A stretch of 35,401 nucleotides of DNA from a virus, in IMG/VR virus record IMGVR_UViG_3300045456_000031, positions 1-35,401 of that record; one strand, given 5' to 3'. The position numbers and the translations under genes were made by a program. The stretch's first letter is position 1. Each line of letters starts with the position of its first letter. This document shows, piece by piece, positions 1 to 35,401 of this stretch. Under the pieces are notes generated by a model, which worked only from the letters and a program-made list of their open reading frames with translations, was not told the DNA's origin and searched no databases.

Positions 1-206
1 CCGCCGCCTGGGACGCCGCCTGGGACGCCGCCTGGGCCGCCGCCGGGGCCGCCGCCGGGGACGCCGCCGGGGCCGCCGCCGGGGACGCCCTCCAACCCAC
101 TGTCGACGACCTGCAGCAGTCCGCCCACAGCCTGTACCGGCAGATGATCGCAGCCGGCCCCCACGACCCGCAGGCACTCGCCGTCACCGAAGGAGCCACC
201 CTGTGA
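1..206 (+). CDS. C-terminal part of AAW-repeat protein (continues from 34891)
   Basis: This is the 3' part of the gene that starts at 34891 and runs off the right edge. The single base at 35401 plus bases 1-2 make a GCC codon, and the frame then stays open to a TGA at 204-206. Joined, the protein has about 238 residues. Residues here begin with repeats of the type AAWD, AAWA and AAAG, followed by a non-repetitive tail that ends in ATL. The stop overlaps the GTG start of the next gene (GTGA), which suggests coupling. Proteins with a globular N-terminus and AAW-rich tails are common in actinophages and actinobacterial plasmids, but their function is unknown to me. Confidence 0.8.
   Translation, partial: AAWDAAWDAAWAAAGAAAGDAAGAAAGDALQPTVDDLQQSAHSLYRQMIAAGPHDPQALAVTEGATL
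3..92 (+). repeat. Tandem 12-base repeat, left part
   Basis: Imperfect 12-base units (GAC or GCC, GCC, GCC, TGG or GGG) encode four-residue repeats. The array continues the one at the right end of the window. Across the joined ends the spacing gains one extra GCC codon, so the frame is kept but the 12-base phase shifts by 3. Confidence 0.85.
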
Positions 207-847
207 CCGCCACCGACACCCCCGACACCCTCGAAGCCGACGGCCGCGAACCCGCCCTCGGCTACTACGAAGGCCAACCCATCGTCGCCGCCGGCGTCAC
301 CATCAACAACGCCTCCGGCGGCCTCCACGACGCCGTGTCCATCGACCCTGTCCGGCTCGAGGTCGGCGACATCGTCCACGTCGTCCTCCGCTGCCTCGTC
401 CGCCCGCCCCAGTTCGACCCGGTCGACAAGGACAACGTCCGCGGGCCCCTCAAGCTCGTGAACCGGCTCCACGCCGAGGACGCCACGTTCGTGGACGCCG
501 AGCTGGTCGGTGGGCTCATCGACCAGCAGCGTGCCCGCATCGACGAGGTGAAGCAGCGGGAGAAGGACGGGCACGACGAACGTCAGCTCACGCTCGACGA
601 CGCCGATGACGACGGCGAGCCGGAGCAGCTCGGGTCGGTGCTCGACCAGGCCATCGACCTCGCCCAGGTGGCCGAGGACGGTGCTGCGTGGCGGCGTGAG
701 CGGACCGCGGAGCTGGATGCGCTCGGGAAGACCGAGCTGCAGGACCTCGCTCGCGACCAGGGGGTGCGCGGGTTCTCGTCGCTGACGAAGGCCGAGCTCG
801 TCGATGCCATCGTCGACGCCGAAGAAGGCGAGGCCCTCGATGGCTGA
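203..847 (+). CDS. Actinophage protein with C-terminal SAP/Rho-N-like motif
   Basis: 214 residues, GTG start inside a GTGA overlap with the upstream gene. Residues about 15-110 form a compact, mostly beta-rich region that resembles a conserved actinophage hypothetical protein usually found near recombination genes. A run of acidic residues follows (about 126-140). The last 40 residues hold a two-helix SAP or Rho-N-like motif (KTELQDLARDQGV, then SLTKAELVDAI), a type known to bind DNA or RNA. Position directly before the DEDDh exonuclease and RecT suggests a DNA recombination or ssDNA-binding role, but this is inference. No catalytic motif is visible. Confidence 0.85.
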   Translation: MTATDTPDTLEADGREPALGYYEGQPIVAAGVTINNASGGLHDAVSIDPVRLEVGDIVHVVLRCLVRPPQFDPVDKDNVRGPLKLVNRLHAEDATFVDAELVGGLIDQQRARIDEVKQREKDGHDERQLTLDDADDDGEPEQLGSVLDQAIDLAQVAEDGAAWRRERTAELDALGKTELQDLARDQGVRGFSSLTKAELVDAIVDAEEGEALDG

Positions 848-1433
848 GGTCTTCGTCGACGTCGAGACCACCGGGCTGCACGCACACCTCGGCGCCGTCC
901 CCTGGGAGATCGCGGCCGTCGAGGCCGACGGGACCGAGCACCTGTGGACGCTCCCACTCACCGACGTCCAGCTCGCGCTCGCCGACGAGGACTCCCTCAT
1001 CGTCAACGGCTGGCACGACCGCCGCCCCGGCGGGCTCACCATCTTCGAGAACCCCGCCACCGTGCAGGCCCGTTCCGCCAGCGAGATCGCGGCGCTGCTC
1101 GACGGACGCACCATCCTCGGCGTCAACGTCGGGTTCGACGTCGCGATGCTCGGCCCCTGGCTCCGCAGCTACGGGCACGACCTGACCGCGCACTACCGGC
1201 CGATCTCCGTGGAAGCGGTCGCGCTCGGGTGGCTCCACGGCCGCGCCGCGGGCGCCCGCACCGTCGTCCCGGCCGAAGCGCTCGCGTGGCCCTGGCGGTC
1301 GGACGACCTGTCGCGCGCCTGCGGCGTCGAACCGCCCGCGGACGACGACCGGCACACCGCCCTCGGTGACGCCCGCTGGGCCCGCCGCTGGTGGTTCCAC
1401 CTCCGCGACGGCGTCCCGACGAGCACCCCATGA
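840..1433 (+). CDS. DnaQ-like DEDDh 3'-5' exonuclease
   Basis: 197 residues from ATG 840; this start has a GAAGAAGG ribosome site and overlaps the upstream stop by 8 bases. All five acidic/His residues of a DEDDh exonuclease are visible: D7 and E9 in FVDVETTG (Exo I), D100 in GVNVGFDVAML (Exo II), and H172 and D177 in HTALGDA (Exo III). The family removes nucleotides from 3' ends of DNA or RNA with two metal ions. It lies three genes before RecT, with no RecE or lambda-Exo-like nuclease visible, so it may supply the end-processing step for RecT annealing (inference). Proofreading for a polymerase is less likely because no phage polymerase is present. Confidence 0.88.
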   Translation: MAEVFVDVETTGLHAHLGAVPWEIAAVEADGTEHLWTLPLTDVQLALADEDSLIVNGWHDRRPGGLTIFENPATVQARSASEIAALLDGRTILGVNVGFDVAMLGPWLRSYGHDLTAHYRPISVEAVALGWLHGRAAGARTVVPAEALAWPWRSDDLSRACGVEPPADDDRHTALGDARWARRWWFHLRDGVPTSTP

Positions 1434-1627
1434 ACCGCACCCGCCGCCGCCAGCTCCAACCCGGCGACCGCGTCCGCGTCACCCGCGGCTGGATCCAGAC
1501 CGTGGGGAAGCGTGGGACCGTCCGCGCCGTCAGCCCGGAGATCGTGACCGTCCACTACGACGGTGACCCCGACTGGATGACCGCCGCGCACCTCGGCGAC
1601 GACCTCGAACCGGCAGACGACCGATGA
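1430..1627 (+). CDS. Small KOW/SH3-like protein
   Basis: 65 residues starting at ATG 1430 in an ATGA overlap with the exonuclease stop. After a basic N-terminus (NRTRRRQ) comes a short beta-rich stretch, LQPGDRVRVTRG then GKRGTVRAVSPE, with the Gly and Val spacing of KOW or SH3-like barrels. It is the size of a single such domain. Similar small proteins are common in phage early operons; no specific function can be assigned. Confidence 0.72.
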   Translation: MNRTRRRQLQPGDRVRVTRGWIQTVGKRGTVRAVSPEIVTVHYDGDPDWMTAAHLGDDLEPADDR

Positions 1628-1950
1628 CGTCCGCCGCCGAAGTCCGCCACGACGCCGTCGTCCGGCTCATCGAACTCGCCGGCGACGAACGCTACGACCC
1701 CGACCTCATCGCGGGCCGCCGCACCTCCCTCGAGATGCTCCGCCGCCGGATCCTCGACCGCCGCCGCGGCGACCTCGCCGTCCTCGCCGAACTCGACCGG
1801 ATCTGGCCGCTCGCCACCGGGGACTCCGTCGCCCTCATCGACACCGTCCGCGCCGGAGGGCCCGCCCCCGCCGCCCCGGACGCCACCGCCGGCCCGCCGG
1901 CCACGCTCGCCGACCTCGAACAGGCACTCGCCGACTGGAGCGCACCATGA
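1624..1950 (+). CDS. Hypothetical early protein
   Basis: 108 residues, ATGA overlap on both sides, so it is probably translated with its neighbours. The first 70 residues look helical and rich in Arg and Leu (for example LEMLRRRILDRRR), then comes an Ala/Pro-rich linker (about 75-92) and a short helix ending at LADWSAP. I recognise no family or motif. Its place between a KOW-like protein and RecT suggests an accessory of the recombination module. Confidence 0.72.
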   Translation: MTSAAEVRHDAVVRLIELAGDERYDPDLIAGRRTSLEMLRRRILDRRRGDLAVLAELDRIWPLATGDSVALIDTVRAGGPAPAAPDATAGPPATLADLEQALADWSAP

Positions 1951-3206
1951 CGACCGGGACCGACCTCGCCCAGCGTGGCACCCAGCAGCCTGCCCTCGTC
2001 GGCCAGCTCGAAGAACTCGCCCCCCAGCTCGAACACCTCGGGGTCGACCCCGCCCGGTTCAAGCGGCTCATCCTCAACGAGGCACAGAAGAACCGGACGC
2101 TGCTGGAGTGCACCCCCGCGTCGTTCATCGGTGCGGTGTTCACCTCCGCGCAGCTCGGACTCGAACCCGGCCCGCTGCAGCAGTGCTTCCTCATCCCGCG
2201 GAACAACCGCCGCCGCGGCGTGAAGGAGGTGCAGTGGCTCCTCGGCTACCCGGGGATGGTCGAGCTCGCCCGCCGCGTCGGGGTGATCGTCCACGCCGGC
2301 ATCGTCCACGCCAACGACCGGTTCGAGGAACGACAGGGCTCAGACCCGCACCTCGAGCACGTCCCGAACCACCTCGACCCGGGCGAGGCCATCCTCTGGT
2401 ACGCGGTCGCCAGGTTCCCCGACGGTCGCAGCATCCACCGGGTGCTCAACAAGGCGGAGGTGGAGCGGCGCCGCAAGATGTCGTCCACGCCGTACAAGCC
2501 CGGGTCGCCCTGGTACGACCATTACGATGCGATGGCACGGAAGACCGCGATCCGGGCCCTGTGGTCCGACCTGCCGGCCGACCCGATGCTGCAGCGGGCC
2601 GCGGCGCTGGACGAGCAGGTCCTGGAGGTGTCCACGGTCGGGTCGCCGTCGGCTGGCCGTCCCGGGCTGGCGGCGCCGACGGCGGTCACCGCCTCCGACG
2701 ACGGCGGTGACGGCGGCGAGGAGCAGGCCGCCGACCCGCCGCAGCAGCAGCCGGCAGCCGACGCCGCCGGTGAGCAGCCGACGTTGCATCAGCTGCGGGA
2801 CCGGTGCCGTGAGCTCGGCCTGTCCCGGCAGGGCAGCCGCGACGAGCTGATCGCCCGCATCCGTGACGCCGAGGCGGCGGAGGACGTGGACGGGCAGGTC
2901 GAGGCGGAGGGCCGCGACGACGTCCCGCCGATGCCGCCCCCGCCAGACGACCCCGACGGCCCCGCGCCGCCAGCTGCGGCGCCGGCGGGGGAGGAGGCGG
3001 GCCCGTCGCTGCGGGACCGGATGGTCGCCGCGCTGCGGACCATCGGGGCGCAGCACCCGCAGTACGCGGACGTGTGGCACCGGATGGTCGCGCTGGTGCC
3101 GGAGCACCGGCTCGACGACGGGTGGGACGACGCGGATCAGGTCGCGCTGGGGGAGCTGGTGGCCGAGGTGGAGGAGCTCGCCGCGGAGGTTGAGGCCGAT
3201 GCCTGA
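1947..3206 (+). CDS. recT: RecT-family single-strand annealing protein with C-terminal SAP-like motif
   Basis: 419 residues, ATG in an ATGA overlap. Residues about 1-225 match RecT: FIGAVFTSAQLGLEPG, then LLGYPGMVELARR, a KAEVERRRKMS segment, and YDAMARKTAIRAL. RecT anneals complementary single strands and works with an exonuclease. After the core there is a long Ala/Asp/Pro-rich linker (about 230-275), a SAP-like helix pair (LHQLRDRCRELGL and SRDELIARIRDAE, about 278-310), another acidic and Pro-rich linker, and a final helical piece. The core is usually about 250-350 residues, so the C-terminal extension is unusual. The DEDDh protein upstream is the likely partner nuclease. Confidence 0.93.
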   Translation: MTTGTDLAQRGTQQPALVGQLEELAPQLEHLGVDPARFKRLILNEAQKNRTLLECTPASFIGAVFTSAQLGLEPGPLQQCFLIPRNNRRRGVKEVQWLLGYPGMVELARRVGVIVHAGIVHANDRFEERQGSDPHLEHVPNHLDPGEAILWYAVARFPDGRSIHRVLNKAEVERRRKMSSTPYKPGSPWYDHYDAMARKTAIRALWSDLPADPMLQRAAALDEQVLEVSTVGSPSAGRPGLAAPTAVTASDDGGDGGEEQAADPPQQQPAADAAGEQPTLHQLRDRCRELGLSRQGSRDELIARIRDAEAAEDVDGQVEAEGRDDVPPMPPPPDDPDGPAPPAAAPAGEEAGPSLRDRMVAALRTIGAQHPQYADVWHRMVALVPEHRLDDGWDDADQVALGELVAEVEELAAEVEADA

Positions 3207-3561
3207 GCGGATCCAGCGCAAGCGCACCCGCGGCTGGCGCAAGCCCGACGGCGCCGTAGTCGTGTCCCGGCCCTCGAAGTGGGGGAACCCGTGGCGGGTC
3301 GTCGAGCACCCCATGGGATGGGGCATCCAGCACGAACGCTCCACCGCCCTGATCGCCGCCTGGCCGACCCGCCACGGAGCTGCAGCACAGGCCGTGTCCT
3401 TCTACTGCCGCGCCCTTCAGACCGGCCAGCTCGAGGTCGTCCCGCTCGAGGTGACGCGCGAGCTGGCCGGCCGTGACCTGGCCTGCTGGTGCCCGCTCGA
3501 CCAGCCCTGCCACGCCGACGTGCTCCTTGAGATCGCCAACCAGGGGGCCACCGATGCCTGA
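3199..3561 (+). CDS. DUF4326 family protein
   Basis: 120 residues from ATG 3199, overlapping the RecT stop by 8 bases. The DUF4326 hallmarks are present: SKWGNPW near residue 30 and ELAGRDLACWCPLDQPCHAD near the end, with three Cys and a His that could bind metal. The family is common in phages and some bacteria and its biochemical role is unknown. Its place after RecT suggests a nucleic-acid-related task. Confidence 0.88.
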   Translation: MPERIQRKRTRGWRKPDGAVVVSRPSKWGNPWRVVEHPMGWGIQHERSTALIAAWPTRHGAAAQAVSFYCRALQTGQLEVVPLEVTRELAGRDLACWCPLDQPCHADVLLEIANQGATDA

Positions 3562-3712
3562 CCGCCGCTACGCCCCCTCCGGCTACCCGTTCTGCACGTG
3601 GCCCGGCTGCCGGACCCTCGGCACCTACCCCGGCGACCGCTGCGGACGACACGACCGCCGCGACCTCCCACAGCTCGAACTCGACCTCCAGCAGCAGGAG
3701 GTGAGCGCGTGA
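3554..3712 (+). CDS. Small zinc-knuckle protein
   Basis: 52 residues from ATG 3554, overlapping the upstream stop by 8 bases. A probable zinc site is made by CTWPGC near residue 14 and CGRHD near residue 29, after which the chain ends with an LELDL helix. The DNA for its C-terminal half (3601-3687) is duplicated almost exactly at 4551-4637, where it is joined to a different gene. Function unknown. Confidence 0.75.
   Translation: MPDRRYAPSGYPFCTWPGCRTLGTYPGDRCGRHDRRDLPQLELDLQQQEVSA
3601..3687 (+). repeat. 87-bp direct repeat, copy A
   Basis: Matches 4551-4637 at 85 of 87 positions (differences in the first ten bases and at CGGCGACC/CGGTGACC). In this copy the sequence is the natural 3' half of the small zinc-knuckle gene. 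The other copy is fused to a RuvC-like N-terminus, so copy A is probably the donor. Confidence 0.93.
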
Positions 3713-4128
3713 GCGTCCAGACCGCCCTCGACCTCCACACCCCCGACGTCGCCACCATCGTGTCCAACGGCGCGATCGCCAAGCTCGTCTACGGCGTCAA
3801 CGGCCGCCCACCGTCGCGCCGCGTCCTCACTGCTACCGCCGAGCGCCTGGCCGCCGTCACCCCGGCCCACATCGCCGACGGGCAGACCGTCCCCGCCGAA
3901 GGGACCTGGAAGCGCATCCGGCAGCTGCTCGACGCCGGGTTCACCAAGGCCGAGATCGGCCGGCACGTCCACGGCCCCCACGCCAAGACGCTGCAGCTGT
4001 CCCGCAAGCAGGTCCACGCCGGCAACGCCCGCGCCGTCGCCCAGCTTCACGCCCGCTGGGCCGCCGGCGACCTCCAACCCACCGGCCGCCTGCCCCGGCC
4101 GAGCAAGGAGGCCACCGATGTGGCGTGA
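3709..4128 (+). CDS. HTH-type early regulatory protein
   Basis: 139 residues from GTG 3709 (GTGA overlap). After an N-terminal region with GAIAKLVYGVNGRPPSRRV, a helical segment contains GTWKRIRQLLDAGFTKAEIG followed by HAKTLQLSRKQV, which resembles a helix-turn-helix. Proteins of this kind often precede WhiB genes in actinophages. It overlaps the WhiB gene by 11 bases. A DNA-binding regulator is likely; the target is unknown. Confidence 0.72.
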   Translation: MSVQTALDLHTPDVATIVSNGAIAKLVYGVNGRPPSRRVLTATAERLAAVTPAHIADGQTVPAEGTWKRIRQLLDAGFTKAEIGRHVHGPHAKTLQLSRKQVHAGNARAVAQLHARWAAGDLQPTGRLPRPSKEATDVA

Positions 4129-4477
4129 CCAAGCCGCCTGCCTTGGCGCGGACCCGACCCTTTTCGAGTCCGAAGGCAGGGGACAGATCCCGATCGACGG
4201 GCTCCGCATCTGCACCAACTGTCCGGTCCGCGACGACTGCCTCGACGAGGCCCTCGCGACCGACACCCTCGACGACGACCTCGTCTGGGGCGGCACCACT
4301 CCGAAGAACCGTGCCGAGGTCCGCATGGGACGCATGACCCGCGACGAAGCGAAGGCCGCCGGCGACCGCGTCGCCTACGCCACCCGCACCACCGCCGAAC
4401 GGATCGCCCAGGACGAACCGTGGCTGCTACCCGTCGAGGCCGTGGCCGTCCCCATCCGCCGGCGGTGGACCGCGTGA
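4118..4477 (+). CDS. whiB: WhiB-family iron-sulfur transcription regulator
   Basis: 119 residues, ATG 4118. It shows the four WhiB cysteines C8, C32, C35 and C41 (CTNCPVRDDC) that hold a 4Fe-4S cluster, the N-terminal WRDQAAC motif, and the beta-turn VWGGTTPKNR that contacts the sigma factor region in this family. A longer C-terminal tail follows. WhiB proteins occur almost only in actinobacteria and their phages, so this gene anchors the host assignment. Phage copies are known or thought to alter host gene expression and superinfection. The stop overlaps the next GTG start. Confidence 0.95.
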   Translation: MWRDQAACLGADPTLFESEGRGQIPIDGLRICTNCPVRDDCLDEALATDTLDDDLVWGGTTPKNRAEVRMGRMTRDEAKAAGDRVAYATRTTAERIAQDEPWLLPVEAVAVPIRRRWTA

Positions 4478-4659
4478 ACGTCCTCGCGCTCGACCTGTCC
4501 CTCACCGCCACCGGCATCGCCCTCCCCGCCGGCGTCCCCGCCACCCTCAAGCCCGGCGGCCGGACCCTCGGCACCTACCCCGGTGACCGCTGCGGACGAC
4601 ACGACCGCCGCGACCTCCCACAGCTCGAACTCGACCTGGAGGCGCCCGCCCATGGCTGA
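4474..4659 (+). CDS. Chimeric ORF: RuvC-like N-terminus joined to duplicated zinc-knuckle C-terminus
   Basis: 61 residues from GTG 4474 (GTGA overlap with WhiB). The first 29 residues (NVLALDLSLTATGIALP, then TLKPGG) look like the start of a RuvC-like resolvase, with the first catalytic Asp in ALDLS. At about base 4551 it switches into the 87-bp duplicated piece of the zinc-knuckle gene at 3601-3687, in the same reading frame as the donor. The rest of the RuvC fold is absent and only the CGRHD half of the zinc site is copied. It is most likely an inactive recombination remnant, though it is open and has good start and stop coupling. An intact RuvC-like gene lies 190 bases downstream. Confidence 0.7.
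   Translation: MNVLALDLSLTATGIALPAGVPATLKPGGRTLGTYPGDRCGRHDRRDLPQLELDLEAPAHG
4551..4637 (+). repeat. 87-bp direct repeat, copy B
   Basis: Second copy of 3601-3687 (85/87 identical). The left border coincides with the end of RuvC-like similarity; the right border is just before the ribosome site of the 4652 gene. The near identity implies a recent event relative to the divergence of the surrounding genes. Confidence 0.93.
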
Positions 4660-4852
4660 CCCCCACGTCTCCGACCGCCTCGCCGCCGAACGCGCCGAAC
4701 TCGAAGCCGGCTACCGCCAGATCGCCCACTGGAACCACATCGCCCGCCTCTGGGCCGACGCCGACCCCACCCGCCGCGGCAACCCCGGCAAACCCCTCAC
4801 CGTCCGCCAACTCCTCGCCCTCGAGCACCACACGGAGACGCGCTCATGCTGA
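4652..4852 (+). CDS. Hypothetical small protein
   Basis: 66 residues, ATG 4652 with a CTGGAGG ribosome site, overlapping the chimeric ORF stop by 8 bases. Mostly helical (LAAERAELEAGYRQIAHW) with a Leu-rich end (LTVRQLLALEHH). No family recognised. It ends in the start of the RuvC-like gene. Confidence 0.7.
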   Translation: MADPHVSDRLAAERAELEAGYRQIAHWNHIARLWADADPTRRGNPGKPLTVRQLLALEHHTETRSC

Positions 4853-5463
4853 ACGTGCTCGCCCTCGACGTCTCCATCCGAGCCACCGGCTACGCCACCA
4901 TCGTCGACCTCCACGACGGCGCCACCGAGACCGTCGCCGGCCTCATCACCCCCACCGTCCGCCGCAACGGACGGCCCCACAAGCTCACCGGCATCGCACG
5001 CCTCCCCGCCATCGCCGGCCAGATCGTCACCCGCGCCCGCCGCCACGACGCCCGCCTCGTCGCCATCGAGGGCTACGCCTACGGCGCCCAGTCCCAGGCC
5101 GTCACCAAGCTCGCCGAACTCGGCGGCGTCATCCGCACCGCCCTCTGGGGTGCCGGCATCCCCTACATCGAGGTCGCGTCCAACACCATCAAGGCGTACG
5201 CGTGCGGGAACGGCCGCGCCGACAAGGACGCCATGGTCGCCGCCGCCCAAGACCTCTACGGCTACCGCGGCCGCGACCACAACATCGCCGACGCGATGCA
5301 CCTCCACGCCCTCGTCGCCGACGCGTTGGGGCAGGGGTACGCCCCCGACCTGGCCTCACCCGCGCAGCGCACCAAGCGCCGCGACGCGATCGCCACCGTC
5401 GTCCCCCTCCTCCCACCCCAGGGAGTCCTCACCGCACCACCCACGGAGGCACCCCATGCATGA
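4846..5463 (+). CDS. RuvC-like Holliday junction resolvase
   Basis: 205 residues, ATG 4846. Carries the RNase H-fold acidic residues expected of a RuvC-type resolvase: D8 in LALDVS, E75 in VAIEGYAYG, and D144/D149 in RDHNIADAMHLHAL, with a conserved K-D pair in RADKDAM. RuvC enzymes cut four-way junctions; phage versions resolve recombination and replication intermediates before packaging. It sits between the RecT module and the replication initiator, as expected for late steps of recombination. The last 35 residues are Pro-rich and probably disordered. Confidence 0.9.
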   Translation: MLNVLALDVSIRATGYATIVDLHDGATETVAGLITPTVRRNGRPHKLTGIARLPAIAGQIVTRARRHDARLVAIEGYAYGAQSQAVTKLAELGGVIRTALWGAGIPYIEVASNTIKAYACGNGRADKDAMVAAAQDLYGYRGRDHNIADAMHLHALVADALGQGYAPDLASPAQRTKRRDAIATVVPLLPPQGVLTAPPTEAPHA

Positions 5464-5839
5464 CCACCCCCTCGACGACCGCGCCAACGCCGCCATCGAC
5501 CTCATCGGCCGCACCGGCGCCACCCAGCTCGAGGTCGGCTACCTCCACGACGACGTCCCCACCGACCAGGCCGCCTGGTGGGCCACCGCCCTCTACCGCG
5601 GCGCCAAGGTCACCGTCGAAGCCAAGCGGTCACCTGTGCACGCCCTCGACGCGCTCCTCGCCCGCCTCCTCGACGGAGCCACCTGCCGCTGGTGCGCGCG
5701 TCCCGTCACCAACCTCGCCTCGAAGGACCCCCGACGCCACTGCCGCTACCGGCGCGACGGCGACCGGTACGTCCGCGGCTGCGTCGACACGCACCACGAG
5801 ACCACCGTCCCCGTGCCCGACTGGGTCCGCCAGCCCTGA
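5456..5839 (+). CDS. Conserved actinophage protein with C-terminal zinc motif
   Basis: 127 residues from ATG 5456 (8-base overlap). The N-terminal part contains ANAAIDLIGRTGATQ and EVGYLHDDVPTDQAAWWATA, a pattern I associate with a widespread actinophage hypothetical family. Residues about 82-115 hold a probable zinc site (CRWC, then HCRY and GCVDTHH). An ATG at 5460 in another frame opens only an Arg/Pro/Thr-rich shadow. Function unknown; its place between RuvC and the initiator suggests DNA metabolism. Confidence 0.82.
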   Translation: MHDHPLDDRANAAIDLIGRTGATQLEVGYLHDDVPTDQAAWWATALYRGAKVTVEAKRSPVHALDALLARLLDGATCRWCARPVTNLASKDPRRHCRYRRDGDRYVRGCVDTHHETTVPVPDWVRQP

Positions 5840-5878
5840 CCGTCCCCGCCCCACCCACGACCCCCCCCAGGAGCTCGC

Positions 5879-6952
5879 GTGACCCCACGACAGCGCGTCA
5901 ACCGACACGCCTGGTGGAAGGCCCTCCGCGCCTCCGACCTCCCACCCCGTGCGCGCCTCCTCGCATTCGTCCTCTCCACCTGGATGGCCGCCGACGGCAC
6001 CAAGTGCTACCCCGGCCAGGACGCCATCGCCGACGCCTGCGGCTGGACCGACCGGACCACCGTCCGCCGCGCCACCACCGAACTCGAGGACGCCGGCTAC
6101 ATCGAGATCGTCCGCTACGGCGGCATCCGCGTCCCCGGCCGCTCCCAGAAGACGCACCGCTACTGGCCCACCATCCCAGCCGACCAGTGCGGCAGGAGAG
6201 CCGCACTGGAACCCGACGACCAGTGCGGCAGCAGCGCCGCACTGGACACCCCGACCAGTGCGGCAGGAGAGCCCCATTGGTCGCCGGGACCAGTGCGGCA
6301 GAACAGCCCGACCAGTGCGGCAGAACAGCCCGACCAGTGCGGCTCAGCTGCCGCACAAGGCTTCCAGGGGGAAGAAGTACCCAGTCTGGACAACCCCCCA
6401 CACACGCGCGCACGCGAGGACGACTTCCCGCCGCCCCCCGCCGAACTCACCACCGCGAACGAGGGGGGGAAGAAGAACCAGCCCCTCGACCACCTGATCC
6501 GCCGCCTCGGCCTCGACGTCCGCCGCCCCACCGACGAACTACGCCGCAACCTCGACGCCTGCCTCGCCGCCGGCTGGACCGTCCCCCTCATCGTCAAGCG
6601 CCTCAGCCACAACCCGCCCGAGACCATCCACTCGCCGCCCGGCTGGCTCACCGACCAGCTCGGCGCGCTGTCCCGCCAGGAGTCGCCCCAGCGGCGCCGC
6701 CAGCGAGTCGACGCCGAGATCGACGCCCGCGCCCAGGCCGCGGCCGTCGAGGACGCCGCACTCGCCGAAGCCGAACGACGCCTCGACGAAGCCGCTCGCC
6801 ACCTCGAGAGCCTCCCCGACGACGAGCGAGCCGAGCTCGAGGCCAAGGCCCGCGGCCAGTTCCCGCACCCCGACCTCGTCCCACGCAAGTCGATGCTCGC
6901 CGAGGTCCACCGGCTGCTCACCGGCGCCGACCTGGAGGACGCCCACCGATGA
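5879..6952 (+). CDS. Winged-helix replication initiator containing the iterons
   Basis: 357 residues, GTG 5879 with an AGGAG ribosome site. Residues about 20-90 form a winged helix (ARLLAFVLSTWM, then YPGQDAIADACGWTDRTTVR and LEDAGYIEI) typical of phage and plasmid initiators. Residues about 101-160 are low-complexity because the DNA carries six iterons read in different frames. The C-terminal half has a conserved helical block (LRRNLDACLAAGWTVPLIVK) and a charged coiled coil (about 275-330). By analogy with lambda O, the protein would bind repeats inside its own gene and start replication, then recruit host helicase. No phage helicase or polymerase is present. A plain transcription regulator is possible but less likely given the iterons. 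Confidence 0.82.
   Translation: MTPRQRVNRHAWWKALRASDLPPRARLLAFVLSTWMAADGTKCYPGQDAIADACGWTDRTTVRRATTELEDAGYIEIVRYGGIRVPGRSQKTHRYWPTIPADQCGRRAALEPDDQCGSSAALDTPTSAAGEPHWSPGPVRQNSPTSAAEQPDQCGSAAAQGFQGEEVPSLDNPPHTRAREDDFPPPPAELTTANEGGKKNQPLDHLIRRLGLDVRRPTDELRRNLDACLAAGWTVPLIVKRLSHNPPETIHSPPGWLTDQLGALSRQESPQRRRQRVDAEIDARAQAAAVEDAALAEAERRLDEAARHLESLPDDERAELEAKARGQFPHPDLVPRKSMLAEVHRLLTGADLEDAHR
6182..6356 (+). repeat. Six iterons with inverted partners: candidate replication origin
   Basis: The 12-mer GACCAGTGCGGC occurs exactly six times, starting at 6182, 6218, 6253, 6288, 6310 and 6332 (steps 36, 35, 35, 22, 22). Exact inverted partners GCCGCACTGG lie at 6200-6209 and 6236-6245, making perfect 10-bp dyads with the first two copies; a degenerate partner is at 6271-6280 and a partial one at 6350-6356. 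The copies fall in all three reading frames (protein shows DQCG, TSAA and PVRQ), so DNA rather than protein is conserved. A somewhat less GC-rich stretch (about 6357-6395) follows and could be an unwinding site. Confidence 0.88.
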
Positions 6953-7239
6953 CCATCCACGACGACCTCGCCGCCATCCGCACCCGGCGCGCCACCACCC
7001 CCGACACGCCCCTCACCCGCGAGCTGGCCGCCCGCGGCCTCACCGACGACGCGCTGAACTACATCCAGCAGCTCGAGATCGCCACGCGCAGCATCGCCGC
7101 AGCCATCGACGGTGAGGTCGGCAACCCCGATTGGCCAATGGCCCCCTACCTCGAGGACAAGGCCGAAGCCGCCGAACGCGCAGCCGGCCAGCTTCGTCAG
7201 CTCGCCGAGCTTGCGCGCGAGATGCCGCCCGCACCGTGA
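6949..7239 (+). CDS. Hypothetical helical protein
   Basis: 96 residues, ATG 6949 in an ATGA overlap with the initiator. Predicted almost fully helical: LAAIRTRRA, then LARE-type segments and AERAAGQLRQLAELAREM near the end. No motif or family recognised. Coupling to the initiator suggests co-expression in replication. Confidence 0.72.
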   Translation: MTIHDDLAAIRTRRATTPDTPLTRELAARGLTDDALNYIQQLEIATRSIAAAIDGEVGNPDWPMAPYLEDKAEAAERAAGQLRQLAELAREMPPAP

Positions 7240-7253
7240 TCGTTGGAGACGCG

Positions 7254-7400
7254 ATGACCTGGCCCGTCTGGATCGCCTACCGCCCCCTGATGATGCACGC
7301 GGGTGCGGACACGGTCAGGTACGTCCTCGTCACCGACGACGGCCTGCAGCTCCTCGGCGCCGCCCCCCACGGACCCGTCGACCCGGAGACCCGCCCGTGA
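7254..7400 (+). CDS. Hypothetical small protein
   Basis: 48 residues from ATG 7254, chosen because GGAG lies 5 bases upstream; a GTG at 7236 overlapping the previous stop would add six residues. It reads MTWPVWIAYRPL at the start and has a beta-rich core (VRYVLVTDDGLQLLGAA). No family recognised. Confidence 0.6.
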   Translation: MTWPVWIAYRPLMMHAGADTVRYVLVTDDGLQLLGAAPHGPVDPETRP

Positions 7401-8191
7401 CCGGCCCCCAGGCCCGCATCACCCACCTCACCGCCAACCTCACCCGCCACGGCGAACACATCGCCAACATCCTCCTCAACCGCCAACTCGGCGACCCCAT
7501 CGACACCCGACGCCCCGAAACCACCGGCCGCACCACCGGCGTCCCCCGCCCCACCGAAACCGGCGCACTCCACTGGGCCGACGCCCAACAACGCGACGCC
7601 CGCCACCTCGGCCGCCTCCTCACCGGCCACGACAACCTCACCGTCCTCGGCGCCGCCCAGATCGCCGAACGCCTCGGCAACCCCCTCCCCGACAGCTACC
7701 CCGTCCGCATCAACCGCAACGAGATCCACCTCACCATCGACCGGCTCGTCGCCCTCGCCGGCACCGCCGAACCCACCACCCACCAGTGGCGCGCCATCGT
7801 CACCGCACTCGGCCAGACCTGGCACCTCGCCGCCAGCATGATCCACGACGGCTGGTACCAGCTCCACGCCGCCCGCCACACCGTCGACTCCCGCGGGCTC
7901 ACCGTCCTGGACCAGACCGCCGAAGCAGACGCGCTCGCCTACCTCGGCCACATCGAGAAGCTCGAACGGCAGCTCGCCGGACTGCTCCGCCGGCTCACCC
8001 CCGCCAACATCCCGGTCTGCGCCGCCGACGGGTGCCGCCGCGCGCTCGGCGACAGCTCCCGCGACGGCCTCTGCGACGAGTGCGCGGGACGTCCGTGCCG
8101 GTGCGGATGCGGCCAGACCGTCCCGCGCGGGAAGGGCGCCACGCACCCGACCTGCCGGCAACGTCAACGCCGAACTGCACCAGGTGCTTGA
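7397..8191 (+). CDS. Hypothetical protein with C-terminal cysteine-rich zinc region
   Basis: 264 residues, GTG 7397 (GTGA overlap). Residues 1-205 are mainly helical and include ALHWADAQQRDARHLGRLL and an IEKLERQLAGLLRRL coiled coil. The last 55 residues contain many cysteines (CAADGC, CDECAGRPCRCGCG and a final CRQRQRR) and look like one or two treble-clef zinc sites followed by a basic tail. A nucleic-acid-binding role is plausible. Last gene before the predicted promoter at 8188, with which its 3' end overlaps. Confidence 0.75.
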   Translation: MTGPQARITHLTANLTRHGEHIANILLNRQLGDPIDTRRPETTGRTTGVPRPTETGALHWADAQQRDARHLGRLLTGHDNLTVLGAAQIAERLGNPLPDSYPVRINRNEIHLTIDRLVALAGTAEPTTHQWRAIVTALGQTWHLAASMIHDGWYQLHAARHTVDSRGLTVLDQTAEADALAYLGHIEKLERQLAGLLRRLTPANIPVCAADGCRRALGDSSRDGLCDECAGRPCRCGCGQTVPRGKGATHPTCRQRQRRTAPGA

Positions 8192-8216
8192 CCACACGCC
8201 TGTGACAGGATGTACG
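8188..8216 (+). promoter_or_regulatory. Candidate rightward promoter
   Basis: TTGACC (8188-8193), a 17-base spacer, then TGTACG (8211-8216). The -35 is good and the -10 weak for a sigma70-type promoter. It lies before the short gene at 8264. Inference only. Confidence 0.3.
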
Positions 8217-8263
8217 CTGCTCGCGCAGCGGGCACAGACGTGCGCCCACAGTCAGGCGACACC

Positions 8264-8455
8264 ATGCCGATCTCAGGCACCGCCAACGGCATCAGCGCCG
8301 GCTACATCCCACCGGTCGACCGCCGCACCCGCCGACAGAGCGCCATCGACCGCGCACGCCGCGACGGCGCCCGGCCAGTCCGCATCGCCGGACCCGCAGC
8401 CGAGGCAGACAAGCACCGCAGCCCCACGCTCGACGTCCACCTGCCCCGCTACTAG
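8264..8455 (+). CDS. Hypothetical small basic protein
   Basis: 63 residues from ATG 8264 (AGGCGA upstream); an upstream in-frame ATG at 8210 has no ribosome site at a usable distance. Middle part is basic and helical (RRTRRQSAIDRARRDGARP). It is followed directly by a perfect hairpin terminator, and may be the only gene of a short transcript from the 8188 promoter. No family recognised. Confidence 0.55.
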   Translation: MPISGTANGISAGYIPPVDRRTRRQSAIDRARRDGARPVRIAGPAAEADKHRSPTLDVHLPRY

Positions 8456-8473
8456 CCCGGGCACCGAACCCCC

Positions 8474-8498
8474 AGAGCCGCCCCCACCGGGCGGCTCT
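8474..8498 (+). terminator. Hairpin terminator at end of early region
   Basis: Perfect 10-bp stem AGAGCCGCCC / GGGCGGCTCT with a 5-base loop, no T-tract, as is common in high-GC actinobacteria. A direct repeat CCCGGGCACC flanks it (8456-8465 and 8506-8515). Confidence 0.7.
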
Positions 8499-8585
8499 AC
8501 CCATACCCGGGCACCCCCGATGGCACCCCCCTCCCAGGACGCCCCCACCCCGGGACCCACCCCCCGCCCCCGGAGGTACCCCGGC

Positions 8586-8678
8586 ATGAGCGTGTACGTC
8601 CTCGCGATCATCACCGCCAGCATCCTCGCCGGAGCCGGCCTCGGGCTACTGCTCGGCTGGCTCCAACACGGCCGCTAG
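8586..8678 (+). CDS. Tiny single-pass membrane peptide
   Basis: 30 residues from ATG 8586 with a GGAGG ribosome site 10 bases upstream. Almost entirely one hydrophobic helix (VYVLAIITASILAGAGLGLL) with a short GWLQHGR end. Stop TAG abuts the ATG of the HNH gene. Function unknown; size and strong ribosome site suggest it is real. Confidence 0.55.
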   Translation: MSVYVLAIITASILAGAGLGLLLGWLQHGR

Positions 8679-8942
8679 ATGGCCAACACCACCGACCGCG
8701 GCTACGGCACCCCCCACCAAGCCGAACGAGCCCGGTGGGCCCCCACCGTCGAAGCCGGCCAAGCCACCTGCGCACGCTGCCACGAACCGATCGCGCCGAC
8801 CGAACCATGGGATCTCGGCCACACCGACGACCGCCAGACCTGGCACGGACCCGAACACCGAGCCTGCAACCGGTCAGCCGGCGGACGCAACGGCGCCACC
8901 GTCACCAACACCAAACGGCAGATGACCATCCGCGACTGGTGA
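8679..8942 (+). CDS. HNH endonuclease
   Basis: 87 residues. Contains CARCHEPI, then WDLGHTDD and GPEHRACNRSAGG, the layout of a small HNH nuclease in which the metal-bound His-Asn core is held by a CxxC...HxxC zinc site. HNH genes next to terminase genes are frequent and several are needed for cos cleavage in known phages. The position just before the terminase pair supports a packaging role. Confidence 0.85.
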   Translation: MANTTDRGYGTPHQAERARWAPTVEAGQATCARCHEPIAPTEPWDLGHTDDRQTWHGPEHRACNRSAGGRNGATVTNTKRQMTIRDW

Positions 8943-9062
8943 CACCCCGACAGGGGAAGGGCGTCCGGATCACCAGAACCCCGGCCGCCTGACTCCCGCC
9001 GGTAGTCAGATCTCTCTCCGGGAGGTCGGTGTCCCGGGACAGCCGCTAGCAGGAGGTGAGCT
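8943..9062. other. Intergenic region before terminase; possible packaging site
   Basis: 120 bases without a gene. It holds two short dyads: CTGACT/AGTCAG (8989-8994 and 9004-9009) and CCGGGA/TCCCGG (9018-9023 and 9032-9037), then the ribosome site AGGAGGTGAG for the small terminase. Its place between HNH and terminase genes is where cos or pac sites often lie. No site can be proved from sequence. Confidence 0.35.
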
Positions 9063-18952: not shown

Positions 18953-21900
18953 GTGGTTGCTGCGACCGACGCGGTCTGGATCGACGTCCTCCCCTCGATG
19001 AAGGGGTTCGGCCCCGCCCTGGCCAAGGGCGCCGACCAGGAAGCCGGCAAGGTCGGCAAGTCGGCCGGAACGTCGTTCGGCAAGGCCGCACTCGCCGCCA
19101 CGGCTGTGGTCGCCTCCGGTGCTGCGCTGGCCACCAAGGCGCTGTTCAACATCGGCCGGACCTTCCACGAGGTCGAGTCCACCATCCGGGTCGGGACCGG
19201 CGCCACCGGTGACGCGCTCGACGCGCTGACCAAGTCGGCGCAGAACGTCGGCACCCGGGTGCCGGCCGAGTTCGCGGACGTCGGGACCGCCATCGCGGAC
19301 CTCAACACCCGGCTCGGTCTCACCGGCGAACCGCTGGAGGCCATGGCCGAACAGTTCCTCGAGCTGTCGCGGATCACCGGTACCGACGTCGCGTCCAACA
19401 TCGCGTCGATGACCCGGGTGTTCGGGGACTGGGACGTCGCTGCGCAGGATCAGGCCGGCACGCTCGACATGCTGTTCCGCGCGTCGCAGGCGACCGGCAT
19501 CGGCGTCGACGAGCTCGCCGGCAAGGTCGTCCAGTTCGGGTCGCCGCTGCGGGCGATGGGCTTCTCGCTGGAGGAGTCCGCGGCGATGTTCGGCAAGTTC
19601 GAGCAGGAGGGCGTGAACGCCGAGCTGGTCATCGGGTCGCTACGTCAGGGGCTCGGCCGGATGGCGAAGGCCGGGGAGGACGCCCCCTCGACGTTCCGGC
19701 GAGTGGTCGACGAGATCGCCGGGATGGAGTCCCGCACCGAGGCGACCGCTGCAGCGATGGAGCTGTTCGGTTCGCGTGCCGGTCCGGACATGGCGGCAGC
19801 GATCCAGGAGGGCCGGTTCGAGCTCGGTGAGCTGCTCGACCTGGTCGAGAACGGCGGCGAGACCATCATGGACGCCGCGGGGGACACGCTGGGGTTCTCT
19901 GAGCAGTGGCAGATGTTCAAGAACCAGGTGATGGTCGGTCTGGCTCCGGTCGCCGAGCGGGTGTTCGCGGCGGTCACGTCGGGGATGACGTGGATACGGG
20001 AGCGGGGGGTACCTGCCGCGCGTGACTTCGTGGAGGCACTGCGCCGGTGGGCTCCGGTCATCGGCGGGGTCATCGCTGTGATGGGCGGGCTGGTCGCTGT
20101 GGTGTCCGCGCACGCTGCGGTTTTGGCGGTATCGGCGGCCGGTGGGCTGGCGTCGTGGATCGCTCAGACCCGTATCGCTCAGTCCGTCACAAGGGTGTGG
20201 ACGGCGGTCCAGTGGGCCATGAATGCTGCGCTGGCAGCGAACCCGATCACGATCGTGGTGGTGGCTCTCGCGGCGCTCGGCGCGGCGCTGGTCGTGGCCT
20301 ACAAGAAGTCGGAGACGTTCCGCGACGTCGTCAACCGTGCCTGGGCTGCGGTGAGGAACGCGGTGGGGTCGGTCGTGAACTGGTTCACCGGCACGGCGTG
20401 GCCCGCCATCAAGGGGGTCTGGGACGGCATCCGCAGCGGGGTCGAGACGCTCCGGAACCGGCTCCGGACCGCGTGGGAGGGGATCCGGCTCGCCGTCGCC
20501 GTCGTGGTCGAAGCCCTCAAGCTCTACTGGAACAACATCCTCAAGCCGGTGTGGAGCGCGATCGCCGCAGCGGCACGGTGGCTCTGGACCAACGGCATCA
20601 AGCCCTACTTCGACTGGATCGCGGCCGGCTGGCGGGCGCTGGTCGACGCCGCCCAGTGGGCGTGGCGGACCATCCTCAAGCCCGTGTGGGACGCCGTCGC
20701 CGCCGCGGCACGGTGGCTGTGGGACCGCGCCATCCGGCCCGTGTTCGGCTGGATCGGGGACCGCTGGAGCGACGTGGTCCGCGGCATGCAGACGGTGTGG
20801 AACCGGACCCTCAAGCCGGTGTTCGAGGCCGTCGGCAGGGCGGTCGGGACGATGCGTGACGCGGTCGGCCGGGCGGTCGACGCGGTCGGGCGGGCCTGGG
20901 ACGGGCTGAAGCGGGCGTTCGCCGCCCCGGTGAACTGGGTGATCGACAACGTCATCAACAAGTTCCTCGGCTGGGTGAACCGCATCGCGAAGGACATCGG
21001 CGTGTCCATCGAGTTCGAGCCGGTCGCCCGGGTCGCGTGGGGCAGCCCTGCCCCCGGCGGGCGGACCACCGGCGGGGTCGCACGCAACAAGGGTGGTCCC
21101 ATCCCCGGGACCGGGGCCGACCGCGACTCGGTGTGGGTCTACGCCACCCCCGGCGAGCACATGTGGACCCGCCGGGAGGTCCAGGCCGCCGGCGGGCACG
21201 GCGCCGTCGAGCAGCTGCGCCGCTCCGTCCTGGCCGGCGACGTCGACCCGGTCGGTGGGCCGGCAGGGTGGCTCCGCAACGTCGCCACGTCGGCGCTGGA
21301 CCGGGCCCGCAAGTTCATCGTCGACGCGGCCCGGCCCGGGTTCAACGCCGTCATGGGGCTGATGGACCGCACCGTCGGCCGGTGGGCGATGCCCGGCCGG
21401 ATCGCTGCCGGCGTGTCCCGCCGCACCGGCAACGCCCTGCTGGACTGGATGGCCGGCATCGAGGAGGAAGCCAAGGCACGCATCCCGGACCTCGGGTCCG
21501 GCTACCAGTCGCTCATCAACCTGGTCCGTGCCGCCGCGGTGCCGCACGTCGTCACGTCGACGCTGCGGCCAGGGGACCCGGGCTACCACGGCCGTGGGAA
21601 GGCTGCGGACTTCTCGGTCGGCGGGCATCTGAACCGCGGCTACCGGCACTCCGGTCTGCGGGCCATCTTCGACGCGTTCCTGCCGGTCCAGTCGCAGCTC
21701 GCGGAGCTGATCCTGGCCGGTGCGCCGTTCAACATCAAGAACGGCCGGCGGGTGCCCGGCTACGCGTGGGGCCGTCCGGGGCAGCCGGGCAACCACTGGA
21801 ACCACGTCCACGCTGCGGTGTTCGACCGTGGCGGGTGGCTGCCGCCGGGGGTGTCGACGGTGGCGAACTGGACGGGCCGGCCAGAGCCGGTGCTCACCGA

Positions 21901-29274: not shown

Positions 29275-29553
29275 CTACGACACCACCTCCAGGTGCCCGT
29301 ACCGCTTCCGCGCACCCTGCCGCGTCAACCGCGACCCACGGGCCACCTCCGCGTAGCTCTCGCCCTCCTCGAGCGCCGCAGCCGCATGACGGTCACGCGC
29401 CCGCGTCAACCCATCGATCGCGTCCGTCAGCGCGTACACCGCGTCGATGTGCGAGTGCGCCACACACCGGCGGTGCGCATCCAGCTCGATCAGCTGCGCG
29501 AGCGCGTCACGCCGCTCGCTCTCCTGCCTCCGCCGCAGCTCGGTGGTCGCCAT
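29275..29553 (-). CDS. HTH protein next to integrase
   Basis: 92 residues, minus strand, ATG 29553 with AGGAGG 6 bases before it. N-terminus is helical and charged (LRRRQESERRDALAQLIELD), then TDAIDGLTRARDRHAAAALE, and a C-terminal helix-turn-helix (SYAEVARGSRLTRQGARKRY) of sigma-region-4 style. Its first 47 bases overlap the integrase 3' end, so both are one transcript. It might be an excision factor or regulator of integration; no direct proof. Confidence 0.72.
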   Translation of the reverse strand: MATTELRRRQESERRDALAQLIELDAHRRCVAHSHIDAVYALTDAIDGLTRARDRHAAAALEEGESYAEVARGSRLTRQGARKRYGHLEVVS

Positions 29554-30418
29554 CACGCCCTCCTGACAACTCGGTTACCGCGTACCGCATCCCGGTCACT
29601 GCCTCATGCATCCGCTCCGGACGGACCCGGAGGTACACCGTCGTGGTCGCGATCCGGGCGTGCCCGAGCGCGCCCTGGATCGTCGCCAGGTCCACGCCCT
29701 CCTCCAGCAGCCGGGTCGCGAACGTGTGCCTCGCCTGATGGGGGACGACCCCCGGGTAGCCGGCGGCCTCCGCGACACGCTTCACCGCCGCGCGGATCGC
29801 CCCGGTCGACATGTGCCGCGACGCGTCACGCGGCGACGGGAACATCCAGCCCGCCGACGTCGAGACCGCCGACCAGGCGTTGAGCGACGCGCGCAACTCC
29901 GGGTGGATGGGGACCATCCGGGTCCGGGCGCCTTTCCCGGTGACCCGCAGCCAGTCGCCCTCGACGTTGGCCCACTCCAGCCGGGCGACCTCGCCGATGC
30001 GGAGCCCGCCGTACGCCATCAGGTGCACCATCGCGTCGATGTCGCGGCGGGGGCCGGCCGACGCGGTGGCGACGATCGCGGCCATCGCTTCCGCGGTGAG
30101 CGCGCGCGGCACGGTGGGGCGCTCGCGGATGCGGTCGATATCGCGGGCGGGGTTGTCGCGTCGGAGTCCGGTGGTCTGGAGCCAGTCGAAGTAGGCGACG
30201 AGGGCGGCCCGGTAGGTGTTGCGGGTCTTGGGCTGGGCGGGGGTATCGGCGAGCCAGGCGAGGAGGTCGCTGGTGGTGGCTGCTTCGAGGGTGACGTCGC
30301 GGTGTCGTTCGAGCCATGCGCTCGCCTGGAGCACGCGTGCGCGGTAGTACCGGCACGTCTCAGGTTGCCAGTCGCGCCGGTCGCGTCCCCAGAGGGTGAA
30401 GCCGAGAAGTTCGTCCAT
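29507..30418 (-). CDS. int: Tyrosine-type integrase
   Basis: 303 residues, minus strand, ATG 30418 with AGGAGG upstream. SAM-like N-terminal core-binding domain (about 15-95, TRNTYRAALVAYFDWLQ), then the catalytic domain with R140 (GGLRIGEVARL), K162 (GKGART), H227 and R230 (HQARHTFAT), H253 (LGHARIATTT) and Y262 (VYLRV). All six active residues are present. It lacks the arm-binding domain of lambda Int and is close in size to XerC/D. It would insert the phage at an attB site; the attP core cannot be identified here, though the gaps at 30419-30497 and 29191-29274 are candidates. Confidence 0.95.
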   Translation of the reverse strand: MDELLGFTLWGRDRRDWQPETCRYYRARVLQASAWLERHRDVTLEAATTSDLLAWLADTPAQPKTRNTYRAALVAYFDWLQTTGLRRDNPARDIDRIRERPTVPRALTAEAMAAIVATASAGPRRDIDAMVHLMAYGGLRIGEVARLEWANVEGDWLRVTGKGARTRMVPIHPELRASLNAWSAVSTSAGWMFPSPRDASRHMSTGAIRAAVKRVAEAAGYPGVVPHQARHTFATRLLEEGVDLATIQGALGHARIATTTVYLRVRPERMHEAVTGMRYAVTELSGGRDGDHRAAAEAGERAA

Positions 30419-34890: not shown

Positions 34891-35401
34891 ATGCACCACA
34901 TCGACCTGGACACCATCACCCTCCACACCGGCGCCCACGACACCCCCGAGCAGGGCCACTGCCTCCTCGAAGTCGTCGCGATGTTCGCCGGTGAGCCATT
35001 CTCCGACCGGCCCGGCTGTGTGTGCCCGACGCTGGCCGCGTTCGGCCGGTCCTGGAACGACGGGATGCGGACGGACGCCGAGCGGGAACAGCTGAAGCGC
35101 TACGTCCCGGTCCTCGTCGGTACGGCGGGCACGCGCGAGGACGCGTCACGTCGGGCGTGGCTGGCGCTGGACTGGTCGGTGCGGGTGTCGGCTCCGGCGT
35201 GGCTGGACCTGGCTGGGCTGGCCGACCATGCGCAGCGGCTGCGGGGGCTGCCGGAGCTGACCGGCCCTGACGACGAGGTGCTGGCGGTGCTGCGGCAGGC
35301 ACGTACGGATGCGGCCGCCGCCGGGGACGCCGCCTGGGGCGCCGCCTGGGGCGCCGCCGGGGACGCCGCCTGGGGCGCCGCCTGGGGCGCCGCCGGGGAC
35401 G
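34891..35401 (+). CDS. AAW-repeat protein, N-terminal part (continues at base 1)
   Basis: ATG 34891 (GGGAGC upstream) and open to the window end, continuing in frame to the TGA at 204-206; about 238 residues in total. The N-terminal 140 residues are globular: CLLEVVAMFAGEPFSDRPGC, TLAAFGRSWNDGMRTDAERE, LKRYVPVLVGTAGT, RRAWLALDWSVRVSAPAWLD. This domain is frequent in actinophages and plasmids. From about residue 144 tandem GDAAWGAAWGAA units begin. The repeat may form a long amphipathic helix; the function is unknown. Confidence 0.82.
   Translation, partial: MHHIDLDTITLHTGAHDTPEQGHCLLEVVAMFAGEPFSDRPGCVCPTLAAFGRSWNDGMRTDAEREQLKRYVPVLVGTAGTREDASRRAWLALDWSVRVSAPAWLDLAGLADHAQRLRGLPELTGPDDEVLAVLRQARTDAAAAGDAAWGAAWGAAGDAAWGAAWGAAGD
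35320..35401 (+). repeat. Tandem repeat, right part
   Basis: Twelve-base units GCC-GCC-TGG/GGG-GAC/GGC form a higher-order 36-base unit coding GDAAWGAAWGAA, seen twice in a row (35323-35358 and 35359-35394). The array continues at bases 3-92 after joining the ends. Such near-identical repeats are prone to slippage and to assembly breaks. Confidence 0.88.

Follow-up and report, generated by a model that had tools for sequence, protein, structure and literature searches.

The initiator gene and the sites inside it

The sequence analysed here (hereafter the window, meaning the whole viral stretch of 35,401 nt) contains a gene with a set of repeated sites inside its own coding sequence. The product of the gene matches PF13730 (HTH_36) with 32.7 bits against a curated cut-off of 25, as well as the replication-initiation families phrog_270 (E-value 5e-11), phrog_391 (7e-8), phrog_678 (1e-6), phrog_428, and phrog_345; these include “O-like” families, the only matches that point toward lambda O. 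An AGGAG is found at 5869-5873, ahead of the GTG start. In the Pfam scan, the protein did not match RepA_N (PF06970), and its C-terminal region, which presumably recruits host replication proteins, matched no family. The neighboring ORFs at 6949-7239 and 7112-8191 had no match, and no P-like loader was identified there.

An AlphaFold2 model made from the single sequence, with low confidence overall, displays helices at the N-terminus, no confident structure for residues 78-201, and a helical, more confident C-terminus. Since the residues encoded by the array are about 102-155, the array is located in the linker. The structure search gave nothing significant, returning only winged-helix regulators at an E-value of about 1. 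The coordinates of all features are compiled in Table 1.

Table 1. Features of the initiator gene, its repeat array, and the adjoining DNA. Positions refer to the window.
Feature	Position	Strand	Description or basis
Initiator gene, 357 aa, GTG start	5879..6952	+	PF13730 and PHROG matches
Winged-helix DNA-binding domain, residues 21-75	5939..6103	+	Pfam, model helices, alignment with distant initiators
Predicted disordered linker, residues 78-201, bearing the array	6110..6481	+	pLDDT <50
C-terminal helical region	6479..6949	+	Model helices 201-356
Site 1	6184..6209	none	Full dyad CCAGTGCGGC-N6-GCCGCACTGG, 10/10
Site 2	6220..6245	none	Full dyad, 10/10
Site 3	6255..6280	none	Dyad, 8/10 in right arm
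Site 4	6288..6299	+	Half-site without right arm
Site 5	6310..6321	+	Half-site without right arm, 22 bp past site 4
Site 6	6334..6359	none	Last dyad, 22 bp past site 5; right arm 8/10 overall, inner 7 bases kept
Candidate unwinding element, least stable 50 bp of 1-9000	6354..6403	none	Nearest-neighbor profile
Near match to actinobacterial DnaA box, TTGTCCAGA	6385..6393	-	1 mismatch; weak evidence

An exact search of the window agrees with the six repeats in three frames that an initial annotation of this DNA had reported. The 12-mer GACCAGTGCGGC is present on the plus strand at 6182, 6218, 6253, 6288, 6310, and 6332, with steps of 36, 35, 35, 22, and 22 bp and a total span of 6182-6343, and has no further exact copy anywhere in the window. 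Relative to the gene, their frames are 0, 0, 2, 1, 2, and 0, and they are translated as DQCG, DQCG, TSAA, PVRQ, TSAA, and DQCG, respectively. The inverted partners described for copies 1 and 2 match exactly in 10 bases and not in 12; partners are also seen after copies 3 and 6, at 8/10, but not after copies 4 and 5. Two identical 22-bp units make up 6288-6331. The array had been described as 22-base phased iterons, which applies to copies 4-6 but not to the first four, because their steps of 35-36 bp correspond to about 3.4 helical turns.

Constraint on the DNA

As a control, ORF 5879-6952 was subjected to 5000 synonymous-codon shuffles that kept the protein and the codon usage. The 12-mer count never exceeded four in the shuffles, compared with the six real copies, and near matches on both strands amounted to 8 sites in the gene, against a shuffle maximum of 5. 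All 12 core columns of the repeat are invariant, while 6 of the 9 next columns vary (Fisher p = 0.0015, a value to which the duplicated copies contribute as if independent, which they are not). Tandem Repeats Finder reported the initiator array with periods of 35 and 22; its other rows have periods of 12, 36, 18, 27, 135, and 21, all multiples of three, which fit protein or low-complexity repeats. A gene-wide count of dyads by spacer length did not separate the gene from its shuffles, and therefore the dyad claim rests on the individual sites.

The constraint is on the DNA and not on the protein, as the initial annotation had concluded from the change of frame between copies. That argument is not sufficient by itself, because out-of-frame duplication gives the same outcome; the synonymous-shuffle test, the contrast between an invariant core and spacers that vary, and the relatives described below are more telling.

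The weak segment at the 3’ side of the array

The weakest 50-bp stretch of positions 1-9000 starts at 6354-6356, directly 3’ of the last repeat, and the weakest 30-bp stretch starts at 6365. In the nearest-neighbor profile, this flank ranks in the lowest 0.2-0.35% of the whole record; the segment still has about 65% G+C, so it is only relatively weak in a genome of 72% G+C. The low stability may also stem from the protein, through the residues that a linker is rich in. In the 35 kb, only four sites match the DnaA box with one mismatch or fewer, and the one at 6385 is the sole one between 5000 and 8000. We also observed a 15-bp repeat, GGGGGAAGAAGTACC / GGGGGAAGAAGAACC, at 6367-6381 and 6465-6479, 98 bp apart, whose first copy is within the weak segment.

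Arrays in other HTH_36 initiators

The only other record of the initiator gene, in viral_contigs, is the same virus, identical over 7 kb. No homologue of the full protein was found in the phage set or in genome_contigs, and there was one marginal, unannotated plasmid match. Two weak winged-helix matches were dropped: L030, whose ORF is not that of an initiator and which lacks repeats, and L031, an archaeal contig whose alignment covers only 47 residues. When six distant N-termini were combined in a profile, none of its stretches was sufficiently conserved for scanning.

For our analysis of the relatives, an initiator is considered to have an array if its repeats go beyond nearly all synonymous shuffles or form a visible repeat family. 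Arrays located directly past the winged helix are present in the Gordonia phages Lennon, MelBins, and Chickadee; the Mycobacterium prophages prophiT36-2b, prophiGD16-1, prophi62-1, and phiGD21-1; the Mycolicibacterium phage Anya (10.9 kb); the Streptomyces phage TurkishDelight; and the Pseudomonas phages vB_Pae_U7 and JBD68. The Serratia phage Parlo has a weaker in-gene array, and that of IdentityCrisis is plain by eye, but 1 of 100 shuffles equalled its count. None of 15 control genes, which are ordinary genes from the same records, went beyond its shuffles. The repeat words vary among these relatives, e.g. AACRTACCCA, AACGTGGTCA, CGACCGGAC, and ATCACCGGAAC. In nearly all relatives with arrays, the weakest 50 bp of the gene starts within about 45 bp after the start of the last site; the exception is IdentityCrisis, whose weakest segment is not next to its array. 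Not all annotated replication initiators have this layout: several with another N-terminus (Ali17, Inspectinfecti, Tiamoceli, Rem711, Shoya, and 1191A) have no array by our test. For the comparison of the repeat in related phages, which the initial annotation had proposed as a check, the array layout was recovered in distant HTH_36 initiators with other words, and the sole close record is identical.

Exact DnaA boxes are found in the array gaps of MelBins, Chickadee, and the Mycobacterium phages, where 0.01-0.02 per array are expected, and none is present in the arrays of the window, Lennon, Anya, and vB_Pae_U7. These boxes (TTGTCCACA, TTATTCACA, TTATACACA, and TTATCCACA) alternate with the initiator sites (arrays L019, L024, L025, L026, L028, L009, and L015), and those in the arrays of the Mycobacterium phages encode PVDNS, PVNNS, or PVYNS. 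Anya, a satellite-sized phage, has seven CACGGGACA-type sites at 1768-1905 of its genome, within the HTH gene and spread over all three frames.

Array order and domain mosaics

To compare the order of the arrays, every site was listed under one rule per family, with the motifs picked per family after the repeats had been seen. The steps are 47, 46, 46, and 22 bp in MelBins and 48, 46, 46, and 22 in Chickadee; 33, 33, 34, and 22 in prophiT36-2b, prophiGD16-1, and prophi62-1; 33, 33, 33, 34, and 23 in phiGD21-1; and 33, 33, 45, and 23 in IdentityCrisis. For Lennon, the steps are 36, 36, 36, 31, and 22 if one includes the site at offset 361, despite its three mismatches, and leaves out a stray one at offset 694. 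In each listed array (window, Gordonia, and Mycobacterium), the penultimate site lacks a right arm, and the last one is a dyad located 22-23 bp further on that has lost its outermost right-arm bases. The half-site and the short step occur together because a 26-bp dyad exceeds a 22-bp step. Given this choice of motifs, the shared order is a pattern for an independent survey and not a demonstrated rule. The N-termini are also distantly related to one another, so the cases are not fully independent.

Mosaic genes indicate which domain accompanies the repeat word. Between prophiGD16-1 and phiGD21-1, which have different words, identity is 93% in the C-terminus and 47% in the N-terminus; IdentityCrisis, which is 63% identical to phiGD21-1 in the N-terminus and 56% in the C-terminus, has the same word as phiGD21-1. 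MelBins and Ali17 share 83% of the C-terminus and 22% of the N-terminus, and Ali17 does not have the MelBins array. The repeat word thus appears to go with the winged helix and not with the C-terminus, as expected if the winged helix binds the word.

We see about an even chance that a common origin grammar, independent of the word, applies to the HTH_36 phage initiators: spaced dyads, then a half-site or two, a step of 22-23 bp, and a last dyad without its outer right arm, followed by the weakest DNA of the gene. The winged helix and the array would be exchanged together, as one cassette, and the C-terminus kept, with the DnaA boxes of the host as optional insertions in the gaps. A targeted literature search, with subscription journals mostly outside its reach, gave no account of the shared array order, which may be undescribed in actinophages.

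Comparison with known origins

Initiator genes with internal origins have been described in several systems. The O gene of the Stx phages P27 and 933W contains six iterons (PMC7466680). The window shares with lambdoid O and ori-lambda (PMC7466680) the iterons in mid-gene, a readily melted segment adjoining the array, and probably the binding of initiator dimers; it differs in its motif, in its steps of 35-36 bp followed by 22 bp, in a flank that, given its G+C content, is not truly AT-rich, and in having no identified P-like loader. In the plasmid pSK41, Rep binds four boxes inside the rep gene, the region encoded by the boxes is a linker, and the C-terminus contacts the primase (PMC5703833). 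RepA_N plasmids such as pSK41 resemble the window in their winged-helix N-terminus, central Rep boxes, and origin-encoded linker, and have a host-specific C-terminus (PMC5703833), whereas the domain of the window protein is HTH_36 and not PF06970.

The closest tested case by domain is the chimeric Rep of the staphylococcal plasmid pPR9, in which a PF13730 N-terminus and its origin replace those of pSK41 and drive a mini-replicon that is compatible with pSK41; the origin was exchanged together with the PF13730 domain, and replication was shown for pPR9 (PMC5703833). The two proteins have in common the PF13730 N-terminal domain and a modular C-terminus, although pPR9 is a plasmid of low-G+C hosts with a pSK41-like C-terminus, and its likeness to the window is drawn by domain and not by site sequences. 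As pPR9 is the tested HTH_36 example named in the review PMC5703833, the layout of the window is of a known sort. The actinophage HTH_36 initiators (Lennon, MelBins, prophiT36-2b, phiGD21-1, IdentityCrisis, and TurkishDelight) share the in-gene array straight after the winged helix, and those of Gordonia and Mycobacterium also the dyads, the half-site, and the last step of 22-23 bp; in contrast to the window, they have other words, other C-termini, N-termini about 26-35% identical to that of the window, and, in several cases, exact DnaA boxes in the gaps. For mycobacteriophages with RepA, an origin has been suggested upstream of or within repA, and no repeats were found there (PMC7157519).

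The array as a probable replication origin

Based on these results, the array is very probably the replication origin of this actinobacterial phage, embedded in the initiator gene itself, of the lambda-O, RepA_N, or pPR9 HTH_36 kind, because the identity of the initiator, the DNA constraint, the weak 3’ segment, and the arrays of the relatives fit this reading. The lambda-O arrangement put forward by the initial annotation is therefore upheld. Our best reading is that the window origin would work like ori-lambda and the RepA_N origins and, by domain, belong with the HTH_36 initiators. The winged-helix N-terminus would bind the CCAGTGCGGC arms; on the dyads it would do so as a dimer, and on the half-sites either as a monomer or in the form of dimers placed end to end. 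A nucleoprotein complex formed across about 175 bp could then strain and open the weak segment at 6354-6403, and the C-terminal region may recruit the helicase-loading or primase machinery of the host. Host machinery is proposed because no DNA polymerase, primase, or replicative helicase of the phage was found among the scanned ORFs, which are a subset from a record that may be incomplete. The claim of a phage without its own polymerase holds for the ORFs scanned.

Among the alternatives, an operator array, with which the initiator or another regulator would repress or block transcription of the gene while replication starts elsewhere, is unlikely. Dyads would suit dimeric winged-helix repressors, and GntR-type repressors such as DasR are among the solved structures nearest to the initiator profile; however, the sites are about 300 bp into the gene, which is no promoter position, the weakest DNA follows them here and in most relatives, and the tested precedents of the same layout are origins. 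Autoregulation could in any case coexist with origin function. Very improbable is a role at the RNA level, in which hairpins of the initiator mRNA would control its translation or stability: the folding of the array stretch is far more stable than that of shuffles (z = -8.9), but any set of inverted repeats folds stably, copies 4 and 5 keep 12 of 12 bases with no partner arm, and the relatives change the word and keep the order and spacing of the sites.

We give hardly any credence to the idea that the repeats arose by recent tandem duplication, tolerated by the linker, and have no function at the DNA level. The identical 22-bp units, the predicted disorder of the linker, and the fact that out-of-frame copying yields three frames without selection would agree with it; against it, the core is invariant and the adjacent bases vary, unrelated words occupy the same place in many initiators and none of the 15 control genes, and the word goes with the winged-helix domain. 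A partition or recombination site instead of an origin is an equally far-fetched explanation: parS and recombination sites can also have dispersed dyads, but neither ParA nor ParB had a match among the scanned ORFs, and an integrase gene is present (29507-30418, minus strand), so the prophage presumably integrates.

The origin reading describes a compact origin of about 1.1 kb, gene and sites included, for a high-G+C phage, which, if functional, would make a usable actinobacterial replicon. The relatives constitute a natural experiment in which the initiator domain and the origin word change together, and their sequences could reveal the rules that govern the specificity of phage origins.

Genomic context of the phage

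In addition to the integrase, the phage encodes RecT, a RuvC-like resolvase, an exonuclease, and a WhiB-like protein, and looks temperate; its portal protein is nearest to those of Arthrobacter phages. The GC skew goes from about -0.2 to +0.19 at about 9.0 kb, close to where the packaging genes begin and not at 6.3 kb; this sign change coincides with a module boundary and is not decisive for the origin.

Other repeats were observed in the record. An 87-bp direct repeat, also present in the second record, is found at 3601-3687 and 4551-4637 (97.7% identical, about 950 bp apart); its second copy follows an apparent short RuvC-like N-terminal piece that precedes the full RuvC-like gene (at 4846), an arrangement that, from its sequence, looks like the aftermath of illegitimate recombination. 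The ends of the record, 1-89 and 35316-35401, have the same 12-bp tandem repeat (CGCCGCCGGGGA / CGCCGCCTGGGG), which suggests either genome closure or an assembly break inside one repeat-rich gene. The tape-measure gene contains at 20505-20774 a 135-bp (45-codon) repeat, which is an ordinary protein repeat.
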